Assembly (NCBI RefSeq): GCF_900091475.1
Contig: NZ_FMIB01000002.1
Location: forward strand, 3,534,001-3,598,000
Source: Micromonospora chersina
GTDB taxonomy: Bacteria; Actinomycetota; Actinomycetes; Mycobacteriales; Micromonosporaceae
Length of the DNA: 64,000 nucleotides
Direction: 5' to 3'
Numbering within the stretch: position 1 is the first letter of the stretch; each line of letters begins with the position of its first letter. The translations under genes and the position numbers were made by a program. This document shows, one piece after another, positions 57,210-64,000 of this stretch. The notes beneath the pieces were generated by a model that worked only from the letters and a program-made list of their open reading frames with translations, was not told the origin of the DNA and ran no database searches.

Positions 57210-58201
57210 GTACCGGCACCGCCGGACCGGTCGCGCATGCCGTTCAGGATCGCCGCGGTGACCGTCTCGTCGCCGTTGTTGACGAACTCGGTAAGCCACT
57301 TGCGGAACTCGGCGCCCAGGTCCTCGCGCTCGACGGCGATCTGCACCACGGTCTGGAGGTAGCCGAGCGGCTGGCCGGTGTCGTAGCGGGTGCCCCGGTA
57401 GACGATGGCGTGCACCGGCACCCCCTCGGTACGCAGGAGCTCCATGGCGTCGGTCAGCTGGATCTCCCCGCCGCTGCCCGGCTCGGTGCGCCGGATCGCG
57501 TCGAAGATCTTCCCGGGGAGCACGTAGCGGCCGAGGACGGCGAGGTTGCTGGGCGCGTCCTCCGGCTTCGGCTTCTCCACCATGCCGGTGACCCTGACGA
57601 CCTCGGCGAGGTCGCCGAACTCGTCGCCGGCCGGCTCGACGGAGGCGATCCCGTAGCGCGAGGTCTCCGCCGGGTCGACCTCGAAGAAGGCCAGCACGAT
57701 GCCGCCGGTGCGGGCCTGAAGGTCCAGCATGGCCGGCAGCAGCGGCTCGTCCAGCTTGACGAACTCGTCGCCGAGCAGCACCGCGAAGGGCGCGTCGCCC
57801 ACGTGCGACTCGGCGTAGCCGACGGCGTGGCCCAGGCCGAGCTGCTCGGGCTGCCGGCAGGTGTAGATCTCGGCCAGCTCTTCGGGGCGGCGTACGGCCT
57901 CCAGCAGGTCGGGCTTGCTCTCCAGCCGCGCCTCCAGGTCGGGCCGGCGGTCGAAGTGGTCCACCATCGACGTCTTGCCGCGCCCGGTGATCAGCAGCAC
58001 GTCGGTCAGGCCGGCCTGTGCGGCCTCCTCGACGATGTACTGGAGCACCGGCCGGTCGACGACCGGCAGCAACTCCTTGGGGACCGCCTTCGTGGCCGGC
58101 AGGAACCGGGTGGCCAGGCCTGCGGCCGGGATGACGGCCTTGACCGCGCGGGAGCGACCGGTCGCGGCGGTCGCTGAGGGGTTCGCTGAGTGCTCCGACA
58201 T
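57206..58201 (-). CDS. galU: UTP-glucose-1-phosphate uridylyltransferase
   Basis: A 331-residue nucleotidyltransferase that makes UDP-glucose. It has KAVIPAAGLATRFLPATKAVPKELLPV, VLQYIVEEAAQAGL, GLGHAVGYAE and LLGDEFV, the standard GalU sites. ATG 58201 has no ribosome site; TAGTCT (58213-58208) lies six bases upstream, so a leaderless promoter is likely within the end of the preceding gene. It overlaps glp. UDP-glucose feeds envelope sugar synthesis and the galE pathway. Confidence 0.95.
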   Translation of the reverse strand: MSEHSANPSATAATGRSRAVKAVIPAAGLATRFLPATKAVPKELLPVVDRPVLQYIVEEAAQAGLTDVLLITGRGKTSMVDHFDRRPDLEARLESKPDLLEAVRRPEELAEIYTCRQPEQLGLGHAVGYAESHVGDAPFAVLLGDEFVKLDEPLLPAMLDLQARTGGIVLAFFEVDPAETSRYGIASVEPAGDEFGDLAEVVRVTGMVEKPKPEDAPSNLAVLGRYVLPGKIFDAIRRTEPGSGGEIQLTDAMELLRTEGVPVHAIVYRGTRYDTGQPLGYLQTVVQIAVEREDLGAEFRKWLTEFVNNGDETVTAAILNGMRDRSGGAGT

Positions 58202-58207
58202 GTCGCG

Positions 58208-58213
58208 AGACTA
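58208..58213 (-). promoter_or_regulatory. -10 hexamer TAGTCT before galU, overlapping the upstream stop codon
   Basis: The TAG of the hexamer is the stop codon of the diguanylate cyclase gene. Six bases separate it from ATG 58201. Confidence 0.45.
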
Positions 58214-60400
58214 TCGGCCACGGCTCTGCCGCGGCGGGTGAGGACCGGAAGACGCGCCGCCCTGTGCCACCGGCGCGGCCTCTCCGGCGCCCGCCCGGGG
58301 CAGTCCGTCGGGCGGGCTGACCGCCGCCGCCACCACGGGGATCTCCTGGGTGGGGACCGGGTCGGGGGCCCGGGCCAGCCGGTAGCCGTCCCGGCCGGCG
58401 GCCTTGGCCGCGTAGAGCGCGTCGTCGGCGGCGTCGAGCACCTGCTGGCCGCCGGCCGCGTGATCCGGGTAGACGGCGATGCCGATGGAGACGGTGACCG
58501 GCACCGCGATCGGCTCCCCGTTGTGCCCCTCCACCCGCACCGGCTGGTCCCGGACCACCGAGCCGAGCCGCTCGGCGACGATGGTGGCGCCCCGGGCGTC
58601 GGTCTCCGGCAGCAGCACCACGAACTCCTCGCCACCCTGCCGGAACGCCAGGTCGACCTCGCGGATCTCGCCGCGTACCCGGCGGGCGAACTCGATGAGC
58701 ACCGCGTCCCCGGCGGCGTGCCCCCAGGTGTCGTTGACGTCCTTGAACCGGTCCAGGTCGAGGGCGAGCACGCTGAGCATCCGGCCGAAGCGGTTGGCCC
58801 GTTCGACCTCGCGCCGGATCGACTCGCGCAGGTAGCGGTAGTTCCACAGCCCGGTCAGCGGGTCGGTCAGGGAGAGCCGCTGCGCCTCCTCGTGCACCCG
58901 GACGTTCTCCACCGCCACGGCCGCGTGGCCGGCGAAGGTGCGCAGCGTGACCAGGTCGCCGTCGTCGAACTCGTCCGCACCGGGCCGGTCGTAGAGGGCC
59001 AGCACACCGAGCGCACAGCTTTCGGTGGCGTCGTCGTCGGCCGGCGGGTGGCCGGGCCGGTCCGGGCCGCCGCGCGGTTCCGCGCCGCGGGGGGCGGCGA
59101 AGGGCACCGCCACGTACGTCTCGCAGGACGGTTCCCCGGTCGGCGGGTCCGCCGCCTCCCACCGGCCGCGCAACGGCTCCCCGGTGGCGGCCACCGTGCC
59201 GAGCACCCCGGCGCCGACCGGCACCCGCAGCGTCGCGGGATCGGCCGGGTCCTCCGTCGGCCAGCGCCCGTCCAGCCCTTCGACGCACTGGCCGACCAGC
59301 ACGCCGTCGCCGTCCAGCAGCAGCACCGCGCCGGCCCGCGCGCCCGTGGCGGCGATCGCGCTGTGCAGGATGACCCGCAGGATGCGTTGCAGGTCGTGGG
59401 TGCTGGCCAGGGTGTCGCCGAGCACGGTCAGGTGGCCGCGGAGCTGATCCCGGCTGCTGGTCAACGCGGCCACGTAGCTGCCCGTCTCCCGGGTCATCCG
59501 GTTGAACGCGGCGGCCAGCCGCCCGATCTCGTCCCGGCTGCGGACCGGCACCCGGGCGGTCAGGTCGCCGTGCGCCACCCGGTCCACCGCGCCGGCCAGC
59601 TCGACCAGGGGCCGGGTGGTCGCCCGGGCCAGCCGCCAGGCCGCCAGCACGGCCAGCAGGGCGGCCAGCACCACCGCGCCGACCAGGGCGGCGTAGAGGC
59701 CGGGCGGGCGCTCCCCCGGCACCGACAGCACCAGCGGCAGCGGCTGGCCGGGGGACGGGCCGACCCGGCGCACGTACCGTCCGTCCGCCGTGTCGGCCAC
59801 CCGGTCCCCGTCCGCCTCGCGGGCGGCGGCCAGCACCGCTGCGCGTACCTCCCGGTTCTCGGTCGTGTGGGTGATGCGGCCCGGGTCGTCGAGGAGGGTG
59901 ACCCCGACGCCGGTCACCGCGGCGAGCCGCGCCACGAAGGCCGGGTCGACGGGCTGCGCGGCGGCGACCGTGCCCAGGTCGGTGCCGGCCGGATCGCGCA
60001 GCCGGACCCGGGCGGCGAGCGCGCGCACCGGGCCGGCCGCCGCGTCGGCGGCGCAGTCCTGCCAGGGCCCGGCCGGACCGCCGATGGTGGCATAGCTGGT
60101 CCGGCCGGCGGTGTCGACGATCTGCACGGCGGCGGCCAGGCCCCGGCCGACCACCTGGTCGGCCGCGCGCGGCCGGGCGGCCGGGTCGGAGACGAGCGCG
60201 ACCGCGTCGGCCGCCGCGCGGAGCTGCTGGCAGAGGGCGTCGACGGAGGTGCGCACCCCGGCCGCCGCCAGGCCCAGCCGCTCGGTGGCGCGGCCCCGGT
60301 CGACGGCGCTCAGGGTGGACCCGACGAAGAACGCGCCGAGCAGGACGGGGCCGAGCACCACCGTGAGGAACGCCGCCGTCAACCGCCCGCGTAGCGTCAA
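58211..60400 (-). CDS. Membrane diguanylate cyclase (sensor-HAMP-GAF-GGDEF)
   Basis: A 729-residue protein that should make cyclic di-GMP. Helix 1 (about residues 6-28: LTAAFLTVVLGPVLLGAFFVG), an external sensor of about 240 residues, helix 2 (LYAALVGAVVLAALLAVLAAW), a HAMP domain (RPLVELAGAVDRVAHGDLTARV), a GAF domain (about 370-535) and a GGDEF domain near the C-terminus: DPLTGLWNYRYL, DLDRFKDVNDTWGHAAGD and the active GGEEF. The RxxD of the product-inhibition I-site (REVD) lies exactly five residues before GGEEF. TTG 60400 is the only workable start before helix 1. The C-terminal 60 residues are disordered. It sits between fthC and galU, where many actinobacteria have nothing. Confidence 0.9.
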   Translation of the reverse strand: MTLRGRLTAAFLTVVLGPVLLGAFFVGSTLSAVDRGRATERLGLAAAGVRTSVDALCQQLRAAADAVALVSDPAARPRAADQVVGRGLAAAVQIVDTAGRTSYATIGGPAGPWQDCAADAAAGPVRALAARVRLRDPAGTDLGTVAAAQPVDPAFVARLAAVTGVGVTLLDDPGRITHTTENREVRAAVLAAAREADGDRVADTADGRYVRRVGPSPGQPLPLVLSVPGERPPGLYAALVGAVVLAALLAVLAAWRLARATTRPLVELAGAVDRVAHGDLTARVPVRSRDEIGRLAAAFNRMTRETGSYVAALTSSRDQLRGHLTVLGDTLASTHDLQRILRVILHSAIAATGARAGAVLLLDGDGVLVGQCVEGLDGRWPTEDPADPATLRVPVGAGVLGTVAATGEPLRGRWEAADPPTGEPSCETYVAVPFAAPRGAEPRGGPDRPGHPPADDDATESCALGVLALYDRPGADEFDDGDLVTLRTFAGHAAVAVENVRVHEEAQRLSLTDPLTGLWNYRYLRESIRREVERANRFGRMLSVLALDLDRFKDVNDTWGHAAGDAVLIEFARRVRGEIREVDLAFRQGGEEFVVLLPETDARGATIVAERLGSVVRDQPVRVEGHNGEPIAVPVTVSIGIAVYPDHAAGGQQVLDAADDALYAAKAAGRDGYRLARAPDPVPTQEIPVVAAAVSPPDGLPRAGAGEAAPVAQGGASSGPHPPRQSRGR

Positions 60401-60510
60401 GCTTCCCCCCGGAAGTTCCGCGCCCCTCCCTGCGATGCTGACACAGAGCGACCGGGAGGCAAGCGTTGCGTCAGGAGTGTTGCGTGCCGGAATTTTCTGA
60501 TGGAGCGGAT

Positions 60511-61131
60511 GTGGCCAAGCGCGACCTGCGCGTCGCCCTGCTCGCCCACCGCCGGTCGCTGCCGGCGTCGCGCCGGGCGGAGGCGGCGGCGTCCGTCCAG
60601 GCCGAGCTTGTCGCCCTGGTACGCCGGCTGCGCCCCACCCGGATGACCGCGTACGTGCCGGTCGCCTCGGAGCCCGGCGGCGACGACCTGCCCGCGGTGC
60701 TGCGGGCGGCGCTGCCGCCGGCGGCGGAGCTGCTGCTGCCGGTGCTCCTCGACGACCTCGACCTGGACTGGGCGGCCTACACCGACCCGGAGTCGCTGCG
60801 GGCCGCCGGCCGGGGCCTGCGCGAGCCGACCGGCCCGCCGCTGGGGAGCGCGGCGGTCGCCGGGGCCGACCTCGTGGTGGTGCCGGCGCTGGCGGTGGAC
60901 CGCCGGGGCTTCCGGCTGGGCCGGGGCGGCGGCTCGTACGACCGGGCACTGGCCCGGGTGCCCGCCACGGTCCCCACGGTGGCGCTGCTGCACGACGGGG
61001 AGCTGGTCGAGGCGGTACCGGCCCAGCCGCACGACCGGCCGGTGCGCTTCGTGATCACGCCGGGCGGCGGGCTGGCGGCGGTGCCGGATGTGGCCCGGGG
61101 CGCTTCCGCTGGACGAACCCGGGTTCCATGA
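60511..61131 (+). CDS. fthC: 5-formyltetrahydrofolate cyclo-ligase
   Basis: A 206-residue enzyme that converts 5-formyl-THF to 5,10-methenyl-THF using ATP. It has the N-terminal KRDLRVALLAHRRSL, the VPVASEPGGDDL segment and the nucleotide loop GFRLGRGGGSYDRALAR near residue 143. GTG 60511 is preferred because GGAG lies five bases upstream; GTG 60484 or the first codon at 60466 are longer alternatives. It is divergent from the diguanylate cyclase and is followed by the CIRCE-controlled fmdB-type gene. Confidence 0.93.
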   Translation: MAKRDLRVALLAHRRSLPASRRAEAAASVQAELVALVRRLRPTRMTAYVPVASEPGGDDLPAVLRAALPPAAELLLPVLLDDLDLDWAAYTDPESLRAAGRGLREPTGPPLGSAAVAGADLVVVPALAVDRRGFRLGRGGGSYDRALARVPATVPTVALLHDGELVEAVPAQPHDRPVRFVITPGGGLAAVPDVARGASAGRTRVP

Positions 61132-61138
61132 CGCACCA

Positions 61139-61165
61139 TTGGCACTCGAATCCGTCGAGTGCCAA
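61139..61165 (+). promoter_or_regulatory. CIRCE element (HrcA operator)
   Basis: Arms TTGGCACTC (61139-61147) and GAGTGCCAA (61157-61165) are perfect inverted repeats separated by nine bases. The CIRCE consensus is TTAGCACTC-N9-GAGTGCTAA, so eight of nine bases match in each arm and the spacing is exact. It lies 29 bp upstream of the FmdB-type gene. This predicts HrcA repression and heat induction. Confidence 0.9.
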
Positions 61166-61193
61166 CCGGCCGTGCCAAGATCCGGAGGAGAAC

Positions 61194-61568
61194 GTGCCCA
61201 CGTACCAGTACGCCTGCACCGCGTGCGGCCACCAGCTCGAGGCGGTGCAGTCCTTCTCTGACGCGCCGCTGACCGAGTGCCCGGCGTGTGAGGGGCGGCT
61301 GCGCAAGGTCTTCAACTCGGTCGGCATCGTGTTCAAGGGCTCCGGCTTCTACCGTACGGACTCCCGTTCGTCCGGTTCCGAGAGCGCCACGAGCACCGCG
61401 AGCAAGCCGGCCAAGTCGGAGTCGTCGACAAGCGGATCGTCCGGCAGCTCCACGAACGGGTCGAGCAACGGCTCGTCCGCCGCGTCGTCCAGCTCGTCTT
61501 CCGGGTCGTCGTCCGGCTCGTCCTCCGGTTCGTCGACCAGCAAGGCGCCGGCCAGCAGCTCCTCCTGA
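61194..61568 (+). CDS. FmdB/Ruc-family zinc-ribbon protein with Ser-rich tail
   Basis: A 124-residue protein. Residues 1-50 form a zinc ribbon: TYQYACTACGHQLEAVQSF and LTECPACEGRLRKVFNSVG, with four cysteines in two CxxC pairs. From residue 60 the chain is low-complexity, Ser/Gly/Thr-rich (many SSGSS units), so probably disordered. In M. tuberculosis the gene next to the 5-FTHF ligase (Rv0991c, Ruc) encodes a redox-controlled chaperone of this shape that belongs to the heat-shock regulon. GTG 61194 follows GGAGGAG. The CIRCE element supports the same role here. Confidence 0.88.
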   Translation: MPTYQYACTACGHQLEAVQSFSDAPLTECPACEGRLRKVFNSVGIVFKGSGFYRTDSRSSGSESATSTASKPAKSESSTSGSSGSSTNGSSNGSSAASSSSSSGSSSGSSSGSSTSKAPASSSS

Positions 61569-61583
61569 CCTCATCAGGTCTCC

Positions 61584-61620
61584 CGAAAAGTGGTCATCCG
61601 TGCGGGATGGCCACTTTTCG
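61584..61620 (+). terminator. Terminator after the FmdB-type gene
   Basis: Arms CGAAAAGTGGTCATCC (61584-61599) and GGATGGCCACTTTTCG (61605-61620), one wobble, 16 bp past the stop. Confidence 0.85.
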
Positions 61621-61667
61621 CGTTCCCGGACGGTTTCCCCCGGCACGCGTTGCCCCACCCACCCCGG

Positions 61668-61729
61668 CGTTGATCAAGAAGTTTGCGTCAAAATCTCGCG
61701 CCATCGCGACGCAAACTTCTTGATCAACG
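61668..61729. repeat. Bipartite intergenic palindrome (TTGATCAAGAAGTTTGCG type)
   Basis: Perfect 22-base outer arms (61668-61689 and 61708-61729; core TTGATCAAGAAGTTTGCG) with an 18-base centre containing TCGCG. It is the longest of the three related palindromes here. It lies in the 303-bp gap 61569-61871 between the FmdB-type and SAF genes, which holds no other gene. Confidence 0.8.
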
Positions 61730-61741
61730 ATGTCTTGGGCG

Positions 61742-61788
61742 TTCCACAGGCTGGCGTGTTTTCCACAGGTCGGCGGGTTTTCCACAGG
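61742..61788. repeat. Three TTCCACAGG repeats with 19-base period (DnaA-box-like)
   Basis: TTCCACAGG occurs at 61742, 61761 and 61780; the last two are preceded by TT (TTTTCCACAGG), and the spacers are similar (TGGCGTG, CGGCGGG). They resemble the actinobacterial DnaA box TTGTCCACA with mismatches. The array sits between the palindrome and the SAF-domain gene. Confidence 0.5.
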
Positions 61789-61871
61789 TGGGTTCCTTGG
61801 GGCGGCGGCCACCGGCGGCTGCTGCCTAACCTGCCCGCGTACTTGTCGGATCGGTGGGCGGGAGGGGCGAC

Positions 61872-62471
61872 GTGGCGGGTGGGGAGGCATCGCTGCGGCC
61901 GGTGCGTTGGCGTGGGCTGCCCCGGGGCCGGACACTGCTCCGGGTGGCGCTGGTCGCGGTGCTGCTCGGGCTGGCGGCAGCCGTGCTGAAGACTCCGGCG
62001 GGTTGTCAGCCCGATGGGAGCCCGGCCCGGGACCCCGCCTCGACCGGCGGCGCTCCGGCTGCCGGCGCTCCGGGTGTCGGGGCCCCGGCCGCCGGTGGCG
62101 GCGTGCCGGGTGGTGGCGTCCAGGCCGGTGGTGGCGGTCCGCCTGGCGGCGTCCAGGCGGGTGGTGACCGTCGGGGCACTGCCCTTCCGCTGCCGGCCGG
62201 GGCGGTCGGGGTGCCTGTCCGGCTCGCCGAGCCGGCCGCACTGGCCGTGCTCCGCCCCGGCGCCCGGGTTGACCTGCTGGTCGTACCGGCCGGCGGGGCG
62301 ACGGGAACGGCCACCCTGCTCGCGCCGCGGGCGCTCGTCCTCGACGTGGTGGGCGCGGCCGGGGCGGTGGACGGCTCCTCGGCGCTCTACCTGGCGCTCC
62401 GCCCCGAGCAGGCCCAGCGGGCGGTCGGCCTGCCCGAGGGCAGCCGCTTCGCCGTGGTGGTCCGCGAATGA
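61872..62471 (+). CDS. SAF/CpaB-like membrane-anchored protein
   Basis: A 199-residue protein with one N-terminal helix (TLLRVALVAVLLGLAAAVL), a Gly/Pro/Ala linker of about 65 residues with GGGVQAGG-type repeats, and a small beta-rich domain (VGVPVRLAEPAALAVLRPGARVDLLVV, RALVLDVVGAA, LYLALRPEQAQRAVGL) like the SAF/RcpC domain of Flp pilus protein CpaB. GTG 61872 follows GGAGGGG. No other Tad/Flp pilus genes are in the window, so its role is uncertain; orphan SAF proteins are common in actinomycetes. Confidence 0.75.
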   Translation: MAGGEASLRPVRWRGLPRGRTLLRVALVAVLLGLAAAVLKTPAGCQPDGSPARDPASTGGAPAAGAPGVGAPAAGGGVPGGGVQAGGGGPPGGVQAGGDRRGTALPLPAGAVGVPVRLAEPAALAVLRPGARVDLLVVPAGGATGTATLLAPRALVLDVVGAAGAVDGSSALYLALRPEQAQRAVGLPEGSRFAVVVRE

Positions 62472-62535
62472 CCCGGTCGGTCGGGGCGGCCTTGTCCGCC
62501 GGGGGCCCGGAACCTTCGCTCGCGGCGCAGGCGGG

Positions 62536-62712
62536 TCAGTCCCAGTGCGGGGGGCGCTCGGCGAGCAGCCAGTCCTCGTTGCCGTAGGACCGCTCGCCCC
62601 AGCCACGGTCGGTGTCGTCGGTGGTCTGCTCGGGCAGCACCACGAAGTCTTCGCTGAGGTCGACCACGCGGTCGTCGTCGCCGCGCGGGACACGGATGCC
62701 GGGATCGCTCAC
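62536..62712 (-). CDS. Small conserved acidic protein, function unknown
   Basis: A 58-residue acidic protein (MSDPGIRVPRGDDDRVVDLS, then FVVLPEQTTDDTDRGWGE and NEDWLLAERPPHWD). The Trp-rich C-terminal half and the GNEDWLL...PPHW pattern look conserved in actinomycetes. GTG 62712 has TATCCT eight bases upstream and no ribosome site, so a leaderless mRNA is possible. Longer readings add low-complexity sequence and are rejected. Confidence 0.65.
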   Translation of the reverse strand: MSDPGIRVPRGDDDRVVDLSEDFVVLPEQTTDDTDRGWGERSYGNEDWLLAERPPHWD

Positions 62713-62978
62713 GAGCGGCAAGGATACCGCCGGAAGGACACCAGTTCGACCGTCGCGGGGCGAACGCCCGGCACGGCGGGCCGTCCGGGTGCGGCAGGCC
62801 TCGGGCGCGGCGGGCCGCCCGGCGCAGCAGGCCGGGTCCGAGCCGGGCGGCACGCCGGGGGTCCGCGCGGGGCGGCAGGCCGGGGGCTCCGCGCGGTGCG
62901 GCAGGCGGGGCCCGCGTGTAGACCCGGCCCGTCGCGTCGGACGGCCGACCGGCCCGGGCGTTGGTAGCGTCGGACGGC

Positions 62979-63608
62979 GTGACGACGCCGAGCGGTGGCA
63001 GCCCTGAGGACGAGACCTGGCGACGCCCGGACCAGCCGGCCGGCGAGGCCCCGGCGCCCGGCACCCACCGACCGGAGCCGGCGACCGGCAGCGACCAGCC
63101 CGACGGTTCGAACACTGAAGAACCCGGGCCCGGTAGCTCATCCGGCGGCGAAGCCGGGTCCGGTGGCTCGGCCGGCGGCGTCGCTATGGACCCGGAGGCC
63201 AGCCCCTGGTCGCGCGCCGGCCACACCGACAACCCGTGGGCGAGGCCCGGCCAGGGTGCCGCCTCGACCGGAGGCTGGCCCGGTCAGGCTGCTCCGACCG
63301 GAGGCTGGCCCGGTCAGGTCGCCCCGGCCGGTGGCTGGCCGCAGCAGCCCGCTGGGGCAGGCGGCTGGGGCCCGGGTGGCGCGCCGGGTGGCTACGCCGG
63401 GCCGCCGCCGACCATCCCACCGCCGCCGGGTTGGCGCCCGCCGGTGCACGTGCGGCCCACGCCGCCCCGCCAGCTCCCGGCGCAGGACATGGCCGCCATG
63501 GACCAGGCCGAGGGACGGGCCCAGCGGCTCACCTACGGCATCGGCGCCGTCGTCGGCGTCGTGCTGGTGCTGCTCACCTGCCTGCTCTGCTCGCGCCTGC
63601 TCTTCTGA
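62979..63608 (+). CDS. Gly/Pro-rich tail-anchored membrane protein
   Basis: A 209-residue protein. The first 175 residues are disordered and rich in Gly, Pro, Ser and Trp, with GGWPGQ repeats (GGWPGQAAPT, GGWPGQVAPA) and a GWRPPVHVRP segment; the C-terminal 25 residues are one membrane helix (GIGAVVGVVLVLLTCLLCSRLLF). GTG 62979 has TAGCGT eight bases upstream and no ribosome site. Orientation and composition suggest a cytoplasmic disordered domain anchored at the membrane. Function is unknown. Confidence 0.7.
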   Translation: MTTPSGGSPEDETWRRPDQPAGEAPAPGTHRPEPATGSDQPDGSNTEEPGPGSSSGGEAGSGGSAGGVAMDPEASPWSRAGHTDNPWARPGQGAASTGGWPGQAAPTGGWPGQVAPAGGWPQQPAGAGGWGPGGAPGGYAGPPPTIPPPPGWRPPVHVRPTPPRQLPAQDMAAMDQAEGRAQRLTYGIGAVVGVVLVLLTCLLCSRLLF

Positions 63609-63651
63609 GCCGGCCGAACACCGCTGATCCGAGCACCCGGCCGGAACGAAG

Positions 63652-64000
63652 TCAGACGATGCCGCTCCAGACCATCTTCGCCCCGCTGTCACCGGTCAGG
63701 TAGACGTACATGAGCGCGAAGACGGCAAGCACGACCACCACGCCGGTGAGCACCAGGGGCAGCCAACGGGGCAGGTCACGGGTTCGGGGCAGGCCGCTGG
63801 TCACCAGCAGCAGGAGGAGCGCCGCGACGGCCAGCCCGACGGTGAACCAGAGCAGGTTCTCGCCGTACTCGGAGTGTTCGTGGATCTTCTGGAGGCCCTC
63901 GGGCGGGTAGCCCCGCTTGCGGAGCACCTCCTCCAACTCCTCGCCGGACTCCGTCGCCACCCAGGCGATGATGGGGGTGAGCACGGCGAGGACCGCCACC
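63652..64000 (-). CDS. DUF2231-like membrane protein (partial, N-terminus off the right edge)
   Basis: The C-terminal 116 residues of a membrane protein with three visible helices (the edge helix VLAVLTPIIAWVAT, LLWFTVGLAVAALLLLLVT and WLPLVLTGVVVVLAVFALMYVYLTG). The acidic segment ATESGEELEEVL, EHSEYGENLLW and the end YLTGDSGAKMVWSG match the DUF2231 pattern. The true start is beyond 64000, because the first helix and the usual HP motif are missing. Function unknown. Confidence 0.7.
   Translation of the reverse strand, partial: VAVLAVLTPIIAWVATESGEELEEVLRKRGYPPEGLQKIHEHSEYGENLLWFTVGLAVAALLLLLVTSGLPRTRDLPRWLPLVLTGVVVVLAVFALMYVYLTGDSGAKMVWSGIV

Follow-up and report, generated by a model that had tools for sequence, protein, structure and literature searches.

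The window analysed here is a 64,000-nucleotide stretch of the Micromonospora chersina genome, in which a 5-formyltetrahydrofolate (5-FTHF) cyclo-ligase gene is followed by ruc, encoding an FmdB/Ruc-family zinc-ribbon protein, with a CIRCE dyad lying between the two (Table 1). The ligase scored 117.5 bits against its family profile (cut-off 84.9) and its stop codon occupies positions 61129-61131. The ruc product scored 74.2 bits against TIGR02605 (cut-off 31.3) and 60.9 bits against PF09723 (cut-off 34.4), and its N-terminus is a zinc ribbon of the FmdB/TIGR02605 type. We read ruc from a GTG codon at 61194, which is preceded by a GGAGGAG ribosome binding site, and a longer frame opening at ATG 61128 in the mechanical ORF list was rejected because the match to the family profile already starts with the first residue of the protein read from 61194.

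Table 1. Features of the ruc locus (positions are those of the window; a point marks features given no strand).
Feature	Position	Strand	Basis
5-FTHF cyclo-ligase, neighbour on the 5' side of ruc (approximate start codon)	60466..61131	+	TIGR02727
Promoter-like block TGGACGAA-N10-ATGACGCACCAT	61110..61139	+	Alignment on CIRCE across relatives
CIRCE operator, predicted HrcA binding site TTGGCACTC-N9-GAGTGCCAA, perfect dyad	61139..61165	.	Motif and orthologue conservation
Ribosome binding site GGAGGAG	61184..61190	+	Sequence; motif recurs in Micromonospora relatives
ruc, FmdB/Ruc-family zinc-ribbon protein, 124 aa	61194..61568	+	TIGR02605 and PF09723 profile matches
16-bp hairpin 3' of ruc with A-rich 5' and U-rich 3' arms; possible terminator	61584..61620	.	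Folding

The Ruc protein has cysteines at positions 8, 11, 29 and 32 (Cys8-Cys11-Cys29-Cys32), and these are the sole cysteines in 80 of 81 proteins compared (that of the window and those from the best 80 of 537 loci), with the odd one carrying an additional Cys13. Beyond residue 56 the Ser fraction is 0.56, and S/G/T/A together make up 85% of residues. An alignment with the 78 available residues of a Mycobacterium orthologue gave identity in 54 of 89 columns (61%), with gaps in 11.

On the 3' side of ruc, the hairpin folds with an energy of -27.5 kcal/mol (z -4.83); a scan for consensus terminators found none, and this hairpin was not called. Between ruc and the next gene there is also a long inverted repeat of TTGATCAAGAAGTTTGCGTC (61670-61689 and 61708-61727, 18 bp apart). 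This 20-mer has 57 copies in the genome at ≤2 mismatches (28 forward and 29 reverse, with 0 in the control), frequently arranged as facing pairs with roughly equal spacing, as a dispersed REP-like element. The next gene itself (61854-62468) encodes 205 aa, with a sub-threshold match to RcpC/CpaB (16.3 bits against a cut-off of 28.8), and gave tblastn matches in 10 of the 80 relatives' loci (best 80 of 537). No Rfam family matched at its gathering score within 58000-64000, and four sub-threshold matches within 61400-61900 were judged to be chance: three were microRNA families falling on the inverted repeat, the best of which reached E 4.7e-05 and 33.8 bits where the gathering score is 100, and the fourth was a Mycobacterium sRNA family (E 0.099).

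The dyad in front of ruc matched TTRGCACTC-N9-GAGTGCYAA with 0 mismatches, and a motif scan of the window returned it as the sole CIRCE site at ≤3 mismatches, with a mean of 0.01 in 100 shuffles. It begins 7 nt downstream of the ligase stop codon, ends 28 nt upstream of the ruc GTG, and folds with 11 bp per arm around a 5-nt loop. The strict form of the CIRCE consensus is TTAGCACTC-N9-GAGTGCTAA, against which each arm matched at 8 of 9 positions. A first-pass annotation, made from the letters of the window, had described a perfect dyad with these 8/9 matches and a nine-base spacer, standing before a zinc-ribbon gene with a Ser-rich tail that adjoins a 5-FTHF cyclo-ligase gene, and both the dyad and its setting were borne out. 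HrcA is predicted, from the motif, to bind at 61139-61165.

We examined whether the genome (6.68 Mb, 99.99% complete) holds the repressor on which the proposed link depends, and found a single copy of hrcA (311.8 bits, profile search). Likewise, the genome-wide scan that had been suggested alongside the operator returned six CIRCE sites at ≤2 mismatches, with 0 for the reversed-pattern control, and these are distributed over four units: ruc (one site), a lone groEL (two), groES-groEL (two) and hrcA-dnaJ (one). The groES gene was confirmed as Cpn10, and the hrcA CIRCE ends 63 nt ahead of the HrcA family match, with the dnaJ gene following hrcA. Allowing 3 mismatches added a seventh CIRCE-like site (C2:3762237), which is at chance level because the reversed control gives 5 per strand at that tolerance. 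A second FmdB paralogue is also encoded in the genome (L010; 73 aa, 57.9 bits for TIGR02605), and has no CIRCE even when 3 mismatches are allowed.

Conservation was first assessed in a named set formed by the best 80 of 537 confirmed ruc loci, a selection that makes this set lean to close relatives; the closest among the matches listed were Micromonospora loci, whose best segments reached 96% identity. CIRCE was present at ≤2 mismatches within 250 bp upstream of ruc in 72 of these 80 loci. Of the outcomes that the first-pass annotation had named as refuting its reading, two thus did not occur: hrcA is present, and the dyad stands before most of the orthologues examined. In the remaining eight the best CIRCE had 7-8 mismatches, with the reversed control never below 6, and across the named loci and the phylum sample described below the reversed pattern gave 0/190 at ≤2 mismatches. 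Among these eight, the Catellatospora locus L032 has a CIRCE whose spacer is 10 bases long, while the other seven, which by title are metagenome-assembled bins, had none at spacers of 7-11. The 72 loci include those of Streptomyces, Mycobacterium, Nocardia, Rhodococcus, Amycolatopsis, Nonomuraea, Thermobifida, Nocardioides and Cellulomonas, and among them 12 of 18 arm positions never vary, an invariance that is partly built in because the loci were selected by ≤2 mismatches to the motif; the spacer positions vary. Since most of the relatives examined have CIRCE before ruc, the site in the window is not unusual for this gene. An upstream ligase match was found in 57 of the 80 named loci (best 80 of 537), and CIRCE was kept in 18 of the 23 loci lacking one, a group in which one locus has only 1,169 bases upstream; dependence of the dyad on its ligase neighbour was rejected on this count. 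As a separate observation, the ruc locus L055 (CALQPL010000006.1) comes from a MAG titled Bifidobacterium breve, and its pre-start bases match those of L071, from the actinobacterial bin LacPavin; L055 is possibly a mislabelled or contaminated bin.

Across the phylum, an FmdB-type match was detected in 282 of 298 genomes and an hrcA match in 265 of 298. Our phylum sample covered 110 of the 282 FmdB-bearing genomes with one listed FmdB place per genome, and was made up of 30 loci from the listing and 80 hand-picked to spread over families. CIRCE stood before 31 of the 110 FmdB-type genes at ≤2 mismatches and before two more at 3, and 77 had none at ≤3 mismatches; the reversed control gave none at ≤3 and one at 4. 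Some of these 77 genes are probably paralogues, and since the top-scoring FmdB gene of a genome may be a paralogue, the phylum fraction probably underestimates ruc. Within the class, closer kin included, CIRCE was present in 18 of 27 (families f1 2/2, f2 7/7, f4 6/6, f5 1/1, f9 1/1, f6 1/3, f7 0/1 and f8 0/6), and outside the class in 13 of 83, spread over eight families. When compared by eye, all 31 CIRCE-bearing genomes had an hrcA match, and CIRCE was found in none of the seven sampled genomes without a listed hrcA match, a number too few for a strong test. In f8, a family of the same class, hrcA was present in 6/6 genomes but CIRCE in 0/6 at the gene read, and therefore the link between ruc and HrcA can be lost. 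The same state, with hrcA retained and CIRCE absent at the gene read, extends over f8, f7 and part of f6 (L139-L142, L144-L147 and L113), where the link has apparently been lost within the class.

Directly ahead of the operator lies a promoter-like block, which can be read as a -35 element TGGACG (61110-61115), an 18-bp spacer and a -10 element CACCAT (61134-61139), such that its 5' part overlaps the 3' end of the ligase gene and its final T is the first base of CIRCE. Micromonosporaceae ruc loci have this block in common as TGGACGAA-N9/10-ATGACGCACCAT, abutting CIRCE in most. We counted its columns ungapped in 24 sequences (the window and 23 loci that are Micromonosporaceae by title), leaving out L023, where CIRCE is shifted, and L032, with its 10-base spacer. 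Counted back from CIRCE, G -27, A -11, T -10, G -6, A -4, C -2 and A -1 were invariant in 24/24, and further positions varied in one to several sequences; the block is one base shorter in L022, L024 and L025. In L023 the block is kept with CIRCE 16 bp further on, so that block and operator are separable. By its sequence the block may be a sigma-70-like promoter with a weak -10; a sigma-70 promoter scan found nothing, and CACCAT departs from the consensus. At ≤1 mismatch, TGGACGAA-N10-ATGACGCA occurs in the genome at the ruc site alone, and a genome-wide regulon of this pattern was rejected, as the sites with 2-3 mismatches did not clearly exceed the reversed control (forward/reverse counts of 24/26 compared with 24/17). 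The looser form TGGACN-N16..19-CANNAT was found in 34 of 81 upstream regions (the window and 80 loci) compared with 0.20 in single-base shuffles, a control that overstates the strength of the result because the motif was derived from the sequences counted.

A second type of promoter site, the SigH/SigR-type GGAAY-N18-GTT, was found in 16 of the same 81 upstream regions (0.40 in shuffles), and in Streptomyces, Mycobacterium, Rhodococcus and Amycolatopsis loci it touches CIRCE or stands just before it. This placement fits with the overlap of SigH and HrcA sites at M. tuberculosis ruc, reported in PMC7448276, and with the SigH consensus GGAAYR-N17-GTT given in PMC4803200. With the form GGAAT-N17..19-GTT, the GTT began 1-7 bp before the CIRCE start in 11 of 73 regions (the window and 72 loci), always with a spacing of 18, and one more such site lay elsewhere. 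Four loci, three from Streptomyces and one from Mangrovactinospora, carry both TGGAC-type and SigH/SigR-type sites. In the phylum sample GGAAY-N18-GTT was present in all f4 (6/6) and f2 (7/7) genomes; three of the latter have GGAAT within the CIRCE spacer and GTT starting 32 bp after the CIRCE start, and one has GTT 18 bp ahead of CIRCE. None was seen in the f5 (1), f6 (3), f7 (1) and f8 (5) genomes scanned. For ruc in the window, GGAAY-N18-GTT was absent from the 250 bp upstream and from 3,027 bp of L001 on both strands, and GGAAT-N17..19-GTT was absent from the 200 bp before CIRCE. Likewise, the SigH/SigR-type site was found in 0/24 Micromonosporaceae sequences, in neither L023 nor L032, and in 0/2 same-genus genomes of the phylum sample. 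The M. chersina genome does encode a sigma factor of the SigH_actino family (354.1 bits against a cut-off of 251.55).

We propose, with a probability of roughly 0.88, that HrcA represses ruc at its promoter until stress releases it, and that the product is a zinc-locked, oxidation-activated holdase. In an unstressed cell HrcA on the CIRCE dyad would block RNA polymerase, and with CIRCE abutting the -10-like element the bound repressor would cover the transcription start. Inactivation of HrcA, which in other bacteria occurs through titration of the chaperonin that supports it, would then allow ruc to be made along with groEL, groES-groEL and hrcA-dnaJ. Reduced Ruc would hold zinc on its four cysteines and stay idle; oxidation would eject the zinc and activate the protein, and oxidised Ruc, needing its Ser-rich tail, would hold unfolded proteins for Hsp70. 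For M. chersina itself we infer the repression, the inducing signal, the transcription start, zinc binding and chaperone activity.

Three other readings were weighed against this proposal. The dyad could be a true HrcA operator in front of an FmdB-like zinc-ribbon accessory protein, involved in metal handling or linked to transcription, that is not a chaperone in this lineage. The breadth of the TIGR02605 family and the CIRCE-less second member L010 would allow this, but the protein shares its four cysteines, its Ser-rich tail and identity in 54 of 89 columns with the mycobacterial orthologue, and CIRCE is common to the ruc and groE units; we regard such a role as unlikely. It is more improbable still that the dyad acts chiefly at the RNA level, as a 5' UTR hairpin affecting stability or translation, and not as an HrcA operator: although the transcript strand forms an 11-bp stem (z -3.55) and three Streptomyces loci have just 10 nt between the end of CIRCE and the start codon, the arms keep the CIRCE sequence, only 5 to 26 of 72 loci retain pairing at the inner spacer positions, and the same motif stands before groE and hrcA. 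A chance match, or a by-product of coding constraint on the ligase, has a negligible probability despite the 7 nt between CIRCE and the ligase stop codon and the overlap of the promoter-like block with the ligase 3' end, given the shuffle expectation of 0.01 in the window, the empty genome control at ≤2 mismatches and the retention of CIRCE in loci that lack a ligase match.

Repression by HrcA remains the preferred reading, and on a wider scale ruc may have been part of the HrcA regulon since the ancestor of the actinobacteria, with its promoter rewired around a retained operator. In this tentative scheme, which we hold somewhat less probable than its negation, the ancestor would have carried a TGGAC-type promoter and an overlapping SigH/SigR promoter, and the Micromonosporaceae would have kept only the old TGGAC-type of the two; the four Streptomyces and Mangrovactinospora loci with both types of site and the three genomes of f2, a family of the same order, with a SigH -35 within the CIRCE spacer are cited for it. 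If this were true, Micromonosporaceae Ruc would be made on protein-folding stress and not on a thiol-oxidation signal, even though oxidation activates the protein. The ruc locus also offers a case of a repressor site that is retained while the adjoining sigma-factor input appears to change. A link known from one pathogen is seen to be widespread among actinobacteria, and therefore Ruc can be studied in harmless soil actinomycetes.

The link to M. tuberculosis Rv0991c (Ruc), which the first-pass annotation had placed in the heat-shock regulon, is in print: PMC7448276 reports that ruc is repressed by HrcA and induced by SigH, and proposes degradation of HrcA during heat stress. According to PMC8557902, the HrcA targets of M. 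tuberculosis are groEL2, groES-groEL1, rv0991c-rv0990c and hrcA-dnaJ2; the four units found here correspond to these, and therefore the link itself is known. For M. intracellulare, a study of acid and oxidative stress gives values of 3.44 and 2.16 for OCU_09740, a gene of the FmdB family, in a table of differentially expressed genes (PMC11022373). We found no open-access paper that joins CIRCE, HrcA and FmdB, or Rv0991c and CIRCE, and, in titles and the starts of abstracts, no open-access report of CIRCE at ruc outside mycobacteria, which is weak evidence of absence. These searches likewise turned up no published account of how widely the CIRCE-ruc arrangement extends in the phylum, or of a promoter type that changes while the operator stays, and this too is weak evidence of absence.

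In comparison with M. tuberculosis Rv0991c, the locus in the window has in common the HrcA site, the Ser-rich tail and cysteines 8/11/29/32, the positions that were mutated in M. tuberculosis Ruc; in that species, reduced Ruc has little or no chaperone activity, oxidised Ruc prevents luciferase aggregation, and a tail-less form fails to do so (PMC7448276). The two differ in that GGAAY-N18-GTT is not found at ruc in the window, which has the TGGACGAA-N10-ATGACGCACCAT block instead, and in what follows: M. tuberculosis ruc shares one operon with the adjacent rv0990c (PMC8557902), whereas in the window a hairpin and then the gene with the sub-threshold RcpC/CpaB match come next. PMC7448276 draws an analogy with the redox-regulated holdase Hsp33, in which oxidation likewise releases a zinc switch of four cysteines in the way reported for Ruc, a likeness of mechanism only. 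Finally, the dyad, the 9-base spacer and the presence of hrcA in the genome are shared with the CIRCE-HrcA control of groES-groEL, although here the gene behind the dyad is of ruc type and has one CIRCE, whereas the two groEL units have two each.
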